Position numbers and translations under genes: made by a program. From NCBI GenBank assembly GCA_938007935.1, contig CALLMD010000006.1, positions 57,156 through 121,155 of the forward strand: DNA of 64,000 nucleotides. Reading direction: 5' to 3'. Positions 22,698 through 61,571 of this stretch are shown one piece after another. The notes beneath the pieces are model-generated. The model saw only the letters and a list, made by a program, of their open reading frames with translations, was not told where the DNA came from and did not search any database. Within the stretch, counting starts at the first letter, position 1; each line of letters begins with the position of its first letter. The DNA is from an uncultured Hellea sp. Lineage in GTDB: Bacteria > Pseudomonadota > Alphaproteobacteria > Caulobacterales > Maricaulaceae.

Positions 22698-22820
22698 ATT
22701 GGCTCCATGTTTGGTCTGAAATGTCCCTCTGACGTGGATAGAAACAGAATTCAAGCTATTCCCTCAGAAATTGAAAAAAAATCTATCTTGCTTAATAATA
22801 ATGACTGCTCTATCGGGCCG

Positions 22821-23010
22821 TTATTGGTCCCTCGCAAGGGGGTGAATATGGGAAGCCTGTGCCATAGCGCTCTTAAAGCTCTGTGAAGTCAGGCACTGCA
22901 CCCGCAGCTGTAATCGGCAAGTGGGTCTGACACATGTCACTGCATCCTCACAAGGGCGCGGGAAGACGTCAGACACACATTTGAGCCGGAAGTCAGAAGA
23001 CCTGCCAATA
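22821..23010 (+). promoter_or_regulatory. Cobalamin (adenosylcobalamin) riboswitch
   Basis: Upstream of btuB on the plus strand. It starts with TATTGGTCCC / GGGGGTGAAT and GGGAA, continues with a GTCACTG element and the B12-box AGTCAGAAGACCTGCC at about 22991-23006. Spacing of roughly 190 nt matches the cobalamin riboswitch class. It should shut down btuB when cobalamin is plentiful. The expression platform would lie between about 23010 and the btuB start at 23120; the ATG has GGAG seven bases upstream. Confidence 0.92.
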
Positions 23011-23119
23011 CGTCGCCAGCGCGCGCGGGCGGGACAGACCGATGCGCATGGAGCTACTCCAATGACGACACCTTGTTGAACCTGTTTGAGTCATACTCAG
23101 ACATAATTGGAGTCGTGCT

Positions 23120-60523: not shown

Positions 60524-61246
60524 TTAATCTTCGGAAGTGGAAGTTAAAAGTCGTTTTTTTTTCTTAGATATTTGAAGATCTTTCCATTTTACATAATCTT
60601 GTTTTTGGAGTCTTTCACTAGTTATAAACAAAAGCTTACTGTGTTTATTGAAATCTCTTTCAAACGCGTCTCCACCAACGACTAAGTCGTTGATAATATT
60701 TGCAATGCAATCAATGATTTGCTTCTTTCCTTTGCAACTTAGTGGGTTTTCTGTATTTAGCTGCTGCATCCGCTCAGGTGAAATCTCAGTCAATTCAGTA
60801 TTGAAAGTACGAGCCCACTGACCATGGGCTAAATTATTTCTAATTTCAATTAATGGCTTAAGATCTCCATCAAGAAGAGATTGAATTTTATCGTGTTTTG
60901 CTAGAGCATCAAAACCAATCTTAGCTTCTGTTAATTCACCAACAACACCATACCTTTTGCAAAAACCTAAATAAACAGCCTCTTTCCATTTATCCAGCAG
61001 TGAGCGTTTATCCATAATCTGAGAAATATCAGAATCAATGAAACCATTGGGTTCAAACAAAACTTTCAACAGTCTTACTTCTGCCCAAGCACCAATAAGC
61101 ATTAGATAAACTTTCAAAAATGCTTTTTCAGCGACAGTATTTTTTGAAGCTACGGCATTATTTAACTGACGTTTAAAATGCTTATGAGCATCATTTAGTT
61201 CCCTTAAGTTTAGAACGTGAGCTTTATATTTTTCATTTCTATTCAT
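60524..61246 (-). CDS. HEPN-like protein with RNxxxH motif, possible RNase effector
   Basis: A 240-aa, mostly helical soluble protein that I do not recognise beyond one motif: EIRNNLAHGQW at about residues 135-144, with Arg136 and His141 spaced as RX4H and Asn after the Arg, which is the HEPN ribonuclease signature. A basic C-terminus (KKKKRLL) follows. AT-rich, lone gene inserted between pncC and the COQ10-like gene. GGGAAG precedes the ATG by six bases but lies inside a 15-bp inverted repeat with the upstream tRNA-like element. No antitoxin (MNT-type) gene is next to it. RNase activity is inferred. Confidence 0.55.
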   Translation of the reverse strand: MNRNEKYKAHVLNLRELNDAHKHFKRQLNNAVASKNTVAEKAFLKVYLMLIGAWAEVRLLKVLFEPNGFIDSDISQIMDKRSLLDKWKEAVYLGFCKRYGVVGELTEAKIGFDALAKHDKIQSLLDGDLKPLIEIRNNLAHGQWARTFNTELTEISPERMQQLNTENPLSCKGKKQIIDCIANIINDLVVGGDAFERDFNKHSKLLFITSERLQKQDYVKWKDLQISKKKKRLLTSTSED

Positions 61247-61251
61247 ATAGC

Positions 61252-61301
61252 TTCCCGGTCATCAAAAAACATTCCTTAAAACGTCCTTTGATGACCGGGA
61301 A
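61252..61301. repeat. 15-bp perfect inverted repeat spanning the HEPN leader
   Basis: TTCCCGGTCATCAAA (61252-61266) and TTTGATGACCGGGAA (61287-61301), perfect, with a 20-nt spacer. In a minus-strand transcript it forms a hairpin that hides the GGGAAG just before the HEPN start codon. The right arm equals the last 15 nt of the tRNA-like element. Confidence 0.85.
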
Positions 61302-61353
61302 TCGAACCCAGCTAGACTTCCCGAAGGACGTGTTTCCATTACACCATCATCGA
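61287..61353 (-). other. tRNA-like element without a normal anticodon arm
   Basis: On the minus strand: acceptor TCGATGA pairing TCATCAA (six of seven), T8, D arm GTGT-AATGGAA-ACAC with A14, GG and A21, and T arm CTGGG-TTCGATT-CCCGG are canonical. Between D and T arms are only 18 nt rather than about 22-23; they form TCC-TTCG-GGA, a UUCG-type mini hairpin, instead of an anticodon stem and variable loop. No CCA is encoded, unlike the two intact tRNAs here. It is either a decayed tRNA or a mimic. The HEPN gene begins 40 bases downstream on the same strand. Confidence 0.5.
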
Positions 61354-61373
61354 AAATATAGATTTGCATGTAG

Positions 61374-61403
61374 TGGTATAAACTTCAAGGAGTAGTTATA
61401 CCA
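61374..61403. promoter_or_regulatory. 8-bp inverted repeat upstream of tRNA-like element
   Basis: TGGTATAA (61374-61381) and TTATACCA (61396-61403), perfect arms with 14-nt spacing, 20 bases upstream of the tRNA-like element on the minus strand. It could be an operator for the element or HEPN gene. No confident -35/-10 pair is seen, so this is tentative. Confidence 0.3.
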
Positions 61404-61470
61404 AGTTGCCAGTTAAGCCGTATTGTCAAATGATCAAAATAAGGAGAAAATTCACTATCCTCACCACATC

Positions 61471-61571
61471 ATTACAAGGCTTGTCCTTGTAATCCATCAT
61501 GAGATGTCTGCCTTAAAGACTATGGAAAATATCGCGAGATGGATTGCAAGAATAAATCTTGCAATGACGGT
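61471..61571. repeat. Two-hairpin palindromic element
   Basis: ATTACAAGG-CTTGT-CCTTGTAAT (61471-61493), then CCATC ... GATGG enclosing about 40 bases, and ATTGCAAG-AATAAAT-CTTGCAAT followed by GACGG. The layout (two hairpins with inverted outer marks and ATGAC after one hairpin) resembles the 86-bp elements at 38.4 and 38.8 kb, though the sequence is different. It lies seven bases before the stop of the COQ10-like gene. Confidence 0.7.

Follow-up and report, generated by a model that had tools for sequence, protein, structure and literature searches.

Why should a gene for an HEPN-like protein be preceded by an RNA that resembles a tRNA, and why should the sequence around its ribosome-binding site be complementary to the 3' end of that RNA? 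Both features are found in the window, by which we mean the whole 64,000-nucleotide stretch of DNA analysed here. An open reading frame on its minus strand (60524-61246, ATG at 61246-61244) encodes a protein of 240 amino acids with an RNNLAH sequence containing R136 and H141, and direct reading of that strand bore out the earlier note, which had placed this frame after a GGGAAG. The answer we prefer, and hold to be fairly probable, is that the locus is a mobile one-gene cassette in which a self-contained, bistable, tRNA-like 5' leader would gate a toxin or defence RNase of the HEPN type. Leader and gene together look like a previously undescribed genetic switch.

The tRNA-like element lies at 61353-61287 on the minus strand, as do all the leader features given below, and comprises a D-arm, a T-arm and an acceptor stem, all of which the earlier note had described, although the acceptor turned out to have 5 bp and not 7, as the AAA that follows it is paired in a downstream trailer hairpin and does not belong to the acceptor. 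The 5' strand of the acceptor, GATGA (61347-61351), pairs with TCATC at 61290-61294. By direct reading, the D-arm is GTGT-AATGGAA-ACAC (61330-61344), with a GG in its loop that recurs in the D-loop of 19 of the 20 leaders of this family, and the T-arm is CTGGG-TTCGATT-CCCGG (61295-61311); such motifs are uncommon in the window, where only about 2% of 260-nt stretches have one. At the position of the anticodon arm there is a mini-hairpin, TCC-TTCG-GGA (61319-61328), a 3-bp stem with a UUCG loop and no anticodon loop, and this part is highly variable in relatives. Neither ARAGORN nor Rfam at its gathering thresholds called the window element a tRNA. A functional tRNA gene was rejected on the grounds of the 5-bp acceptor, where 7 bp are expected, and of the lack of a canonical 7-nt anticodon loop in the fold with the tRNA-like helices held. 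A tmRNA identity was likewise rejected, given that ARAGORN found no tmRNA and that the best Rfam match of the element, to beta_tmRNA, reached 22.7 bits, far below the gathering threshold of 84. Elsewhere in the window, Rfam identified a Cobalamin riboswitch (RF00174, 95.9 bits) at 22808-23024.

Just before the ATG, the sequence at 61266-61252 (TTTGATGACCGGGAA) is the exact complement of 61301-61287 and holds the GGGAA of the GGGAAG. This is the 15-nt complement that the earlier note had reported, and the repeat is in fact longer, as 61301-61279 pairs with 61274-61252 over 23 positions around a 4-nt loop, giving a complete long hairpin at 61252-61301. None of the 1162 stretches of 110 nt into which the window was divided has a stronger inverted repeat (it scores 21, versus 14.5 for the next), and the fold z-score of the leader is -5.0. 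The apical part of this hairpin is the trailer hairpin (61264-61289, AAAGGACGTTT...AATGTTTTTT), which fits both folds. It is followed by a second copy of the acceptor 5' strand, again GATGA (61259-61263), which can pair with the same TCATC at 61290-61294, and it is because this invading arm can displace the first copy that the leader can take either the tRNA-like or the long-hairpin fold. The arm ends in the Shine-Dalgarno sequence GGGAAG (61251-61256).

A sigma-70 promoter, TTTATA-16-TATATT, is predicted at 61355-61382, with its predicted start at the 5' end of the tRNA-like element, and a consensus promoter scan selected the same site as our simple sigma-70 scoring. With the latter, 14 of the 20 leaders have their best site at a spacing that would start transcription at -4 to +3 relative to the first acceptor pair. 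U-tracts of 3-6 occur in many trailer hairpins; notwithstanding these, attenuation through an intrinsic terminator was provisionally set aside, since the scan detected no terminator beyond this hairpin in either the window or leader L023, and its match in L019 lay elsewhere. Immediately upstream of the leader promoter, at 61460-61570, there is a palindrome-rich, REP- or MITE-like intergenic element, partial copies of which were seen at two other places in the same genome (contigs C16 and C25).

What the gene encodes was approached from several directions. The window protein matches phrog_12663, a family of unknown function (E=2e-57), and had 0 matches in Pfam, NCBIfam and PADLOC. The family shares the motif RNx[L/I]AHGQW (Rx4H), unchanged in every member, and the invariant residues, numbered as in the window protein, are N13, E56, W87, R136, N137, A140, H141, G142, Q143 and W144; in particular R136, N137 and H141, as well as E56 and W87, are retained in 19 relatives at identities down to about 20%. 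A conserved Rx4-6H motif, a feature of the HEPN superfamily, is thus present, and the 19 members gave sub-threshold matches to four HEPN Pfam families (best E 0.026). The AlphaFold2 model is confident and all-helical (pLDDT 90). A Foldseek search with this model returned no match at E<=0.001; the HEPN antiphage RNase AbiV was the only antiphage HEPN among the weak matches listed, at E of about 0.6, and the hhalign alignment with RiboL-PSP covers the RN..AH motif only, with a probability of 10%. The Arg and His that the earlier note had singled out are invariant; the evidence for HEPN membership as such is confined to the motif and sub-threshold profile matches. In our opinion, the protein is likely HEPN-like on these two grounds, its fold being unconfirmed by Foldseek or profile comparison, and the gene probably specifies an HEPN-type toxin or defence RNase.

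The family to which the window gene belongs is rare, mobile and made of a single gene. The protein was present in 2 of 398 genomes of the order, the window's own included, and genome searches found few members outside it. Hosts nonetheless include alpha- and gammaproteobacteria (another member was found in a gammaproteobacterium), cyanobacteria and actinobacteria, and protein identity between members falls to about 20%. Plasmid-borne members occur in the cyanobacterium Kovacikia, in Raoultella and in Rhodococcus, and others reside on IMG/VR viral contigs. The window gene is flanked by ratA and cinA, one on each side, with 1120 nt between them, compared to about 50-470 nt in those relatives of the window genome for which both genes were located on a single fetched locus (L061, L064 and L066-L068); because of this short gap in relatives and of the single other carrier genome in the order, the cassette looks like a sporadic insertion. 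No recombinase is attached to it in the window, and no constant protein partner was found in the neighbourhoods seen; the leader is the sole conserved partner of the family gene. The Rhodococcus copy lies near a gene for an AbiGi-family antitoxin and a restriction endonuclease.

If the leader belongs with the gene, it should be found wherever the gene is. A tRNA-like element lies directly upstream in 20 of the 20 members for which upstream sequence was available, a set that contains the near-duplicates L007/L024, L014/L029, L016/L017 and L020/L021 and from which L003 and L027, cut off at contig ends, were left out. An arm complementary to the acceptor 3' strand follows in 18 of these 20 leaders (L006 has none and that of L028 is weak), and the layout that the earlier note had proposed looking for in relatives is thus kept in distant ones. 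From 5' to 3', the order is 1-2 unpaired bases, the 5-nt acceptor 5' strand, the D-arm, a variable arm in the anticodon position, a T-arm with TTCRANY, the 5-nt acceptor 3' strand, the trailer hairpin, usually on AAA...UUU, the second copy of the acceptor 5' strand and the start region. When the tRNA-like helices were held, a 5-bp/7-nt anticodon arm folded in 0 of 20 leaders. The resemblance to tRNA is not merely one seen by eye, as the Rfam tRNA model scored two leaders above its gathering threshold (L023 at 40.1 bits and L016 at 34.5), and ARAGORN made tRNA calls on some leaders. The more alike two of the proteins are, the more alike their leaders tend to be (Mantel r 0.48, with 2 of 5000 permutations as high), and leader and gene therefore travel together. 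Several of the trailer apical loops of L012, L014, L023, L025 and L029 resemble CGAGTG/GAGTG, a possible protein-binding motif.

Whether both folds are maintained can be read from the way these sequences vary. The 14 non-redundant leaders give 70 cells for each helix. The 3' strand of the acceptor is paired to its 5' strand in 68 of them, a count that leans towards pairing for L015, L016, L019 and L020-22 as their acceptor registers were set by hand, and to the downstream arm in all 70; in 50,000 shuffles, pairing never rose above 60. For a second count, the strands were cut out and placed in fixed alignment blocks separated by constant spacers, because MAFFT on whole leaders misplaces the acceptor, the anticodon arm being variable; the T-arm block of L019 is mis-registered in this alignment, outside the counted pairs. 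Here all 5 acceptor pairs and all 10 pairs of arm plus trailer change on both sides, with covariation scores of 1.09 and 0.93 against 0.27 and 0.32 in shuffled data, and 0 of 500 shuffles reached the observed values. The shuffle tests ignore relatedness among leaders, which is kept in a control where the partner was slid by 1-3 columns, and there the covariation signal was lost. Two mutually exclusive helices thus share one strand, and both pairings are under selection. The fold-exclusive layout seen by the earlier note in a single sequence is therefore matched by covariation of both helices in relatives, and since one strand is kept complementary to two partners that exclude each other, we regard this as the signature of a switch. 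Among comparable stretches, the arm is also specific to the family: when the D/T pattern shown by two types of leader was sought in viral contigs, 89 stretches fitted it, of which 5 had the arm (scores 15-18), all of them leaders of the window gene's family, with the other 84 scoring <=8. Upstream of other HEPN families, the T-arm motif was found in 0 of 15 loci for RiboL-PSP, 1 of 15 for Abi_2 and 0 of 4 for AbiU2, against a background of about 2% in stretches of the window.

Folding predictions show what such a switch could do to the start site. Once the arm is removed, most leaders have the tRNA-like fold as their best or near-best, whereas in the full leader the long hairpin is favoured by 8.5-23 kcal/mol, as computed by minimum-energy folding, with kinetics, modified bases and tertiary contacts lying outside the model. 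When the tRNA-like fold is held, the predicted probability that the Shine-Dalgarno is unpaired goes from 0.01 to 0.59 in the window, from 0.03 to 0.72 in L015 and from 0.00 to 0.65 in L012, and it rises in 13 of the 20 leaders; L006, L016, L017, L018, L021, L023 and L028 show no clear opening. In L016, L017 and L007/L024, a considerable distance separates the arm from the start downstream of it, and in L016 and L017 the start codon is roughly 50-70 nt beyond it, with a Shine-Dalgarno of its own, so that in these two the arm must serve another role. The idea that the ribosome-binding site is alternately hidden and free, put forward in the earlier note, is thus predicted for the window and for most members but is not universal among the 20 leaders, and control of initiation may therefore not be the sole role of the leader.

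On the switch reading, transcription would start at the 5' end of the tRNA-like element, and the nascent RNA would take the tRNA-like fold first. With the arm synthesised, branch migration could then proceed from the trailer hairpin and melt the acceptor and the T-arm, and the resulting long hairpin would bury the Shine-Dalgarno in the window and most members, leaving the resting mRNA poorly translated. A binder of the tRNA elbow or acceptor might then hold the tRNA-like fold and change expression; candidates are the HEPN-like protein itself and a tRNA-binding or processing factor. The signal might be tRNA-processing factors or the protein's own cleavage, as the earlier note had suggested, or else tRNA supply. 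It is also conceivable that a released tRNA-like RNA binds the protein in trans, as the AbiF RNA does, and this step, alongside the nature of the ligand, is the least certain. More tentatively, the look-alike leader might compete with tRNAs for the tRNA-binding machinery, so that its fold state would report tRNA supply, damage or processing and switch on an HEPN-type antiphage RNase, which would make it a new class of riboregulator.

The main rival to a cis-acting switch, and one compatible with it, is a role in trans. It is possible, if rather doubtful, that the system is of the type III-like toxin-antitoxin kind, with the tRNA-like RNA acting mainly as an antitoxin, a substrate mimic that the HEPN RNase binds but cannot cleave and that thereby blocks it, and the arm merely disabling the mRNA copy or lowering read-through. 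The architecture of AbiF-RCd22, where the 5' UTR of the gene for an Rx4H HEPN toxin carries a non-coding RNA that is made from the same promoter and neutralises in cis and in trans, is a close parallel (PMC12373285), and a leader that is the only conserved partner, that lacks a canonical anticodon loop, as a mimic resistant to cleavage at that site should, and whose similarities correlate with those of the protein would all suit such a role. However, a pure trans antitoxin needs no fold-destroying arm that covaries with it, and after the trailer hairpin no terminator was found in the window or L023, the match in L019 being elsewhere. The architecture and the predicted promoter phasing would agree with an upstream antitoxin RNA under a shared promoter, as in AbiF-type systems, and the terminator scan of the window was empty.

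That we are dealing with a tRNA gene, ordinary or decayed, next to an unrelated hairpin serving as terminator or repeat, appears most improbable to us. The Rfam tRNA matches of L016 and L023 and the ARAGORN calls on some leaders would fit it, but the missing anticodon loop, the short acceptor and the constant tie to one protein family do not, and neither does an arm that is absent from 84 comparable stretches and covaries with the acceptor. We also consider it very unlikely that the repeats act at the DNA level, as a cruciform or as the integration/excision site of a mobile cassette, for although the cassette looks sporadically inserted in a widened ratA-cinA gap, the GG of the D-loop, the TTCRANY of the T-loop and acceptor covariation on both sides are signatures of RNA, the predicted promoter is in phase with the 5' end of the tRNA-like element and no recombinase accompanies the cassette in the window.

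AbiF is a proposed ancestor of Cas13. The AbiF/AbiD systems (Abi_2, PF07751; abiF RNA, RF03085) resemble ours in the structured non-coding RNA that occupies the 5' UTR of their Rx4H toxin of HEPN type, in a shared promoter, which for the window leader is a prediction, and in an occurrence in prophages and on plasmids; they differ in that the window leader is tRNA-like and bistable. In the RCd22-AbiF pair of C. difficile, the 5' UTR RNA lowers expression and also neutralises the toxin in trans (PMC12373285). PF07751 was matched neither by the window protein, nor by the 19 members in the families listed, nor in profile comparison, and RF03085 had no Rfam match in the window or the leaders, and for these reasons we do not claim AbiF membership. 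AbiV and other HEPN RNases are likewise all-helical with an Rx4-6H motif, but they have no significant sequence or fold match to the window protein, and no such leader is known to have been described for them. The thrS operator mimics tRNA and is bound by ThrRS; its hairpins are mimics for its own synthetase, whereas the window leader keeps the elbow and acceptor, has lost the anticodon and has a fold exclusive with a hairpin that hides the Shine-Dalgarno. The likeness is in the structured leader beside the ribosome-binding site, which in E. coli thrS is recognised by a tRNA-binding protein (PMC3858243). T-box leaders also have mutually exclusive folds tied to tRNA, but they bind tRNA, whereas the window leader itself takes the tRNA-like fold, and Rfam found no T-box in the window or the leaders. 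Searches of the literature, mostly open-access and without bioRxiv, did not turn up any account of an HEPN gene with a tRNA-like leader.

If our reading is correct, these leaders would form a class that alternates between a tRNA fold and a second state and is coupled to an RNase-like toxin that plasmids and prophages have spread across phyla, and they would link the RNA antitoxins of HEPN toxins such as AbiF to tRNA surveillance. The model is compact and testable, and intact copies exist in E. coli, one in a prophage of strain NH-21 (WP_338850341), with a second copy in 2018-11-1BCC. Separately, an N-terminally truncated remnant of the gene (L010, L009) was seen beside sitABC in about 298 E. 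coli genomes, in lambda-like phages and on an E. coli plasmid.
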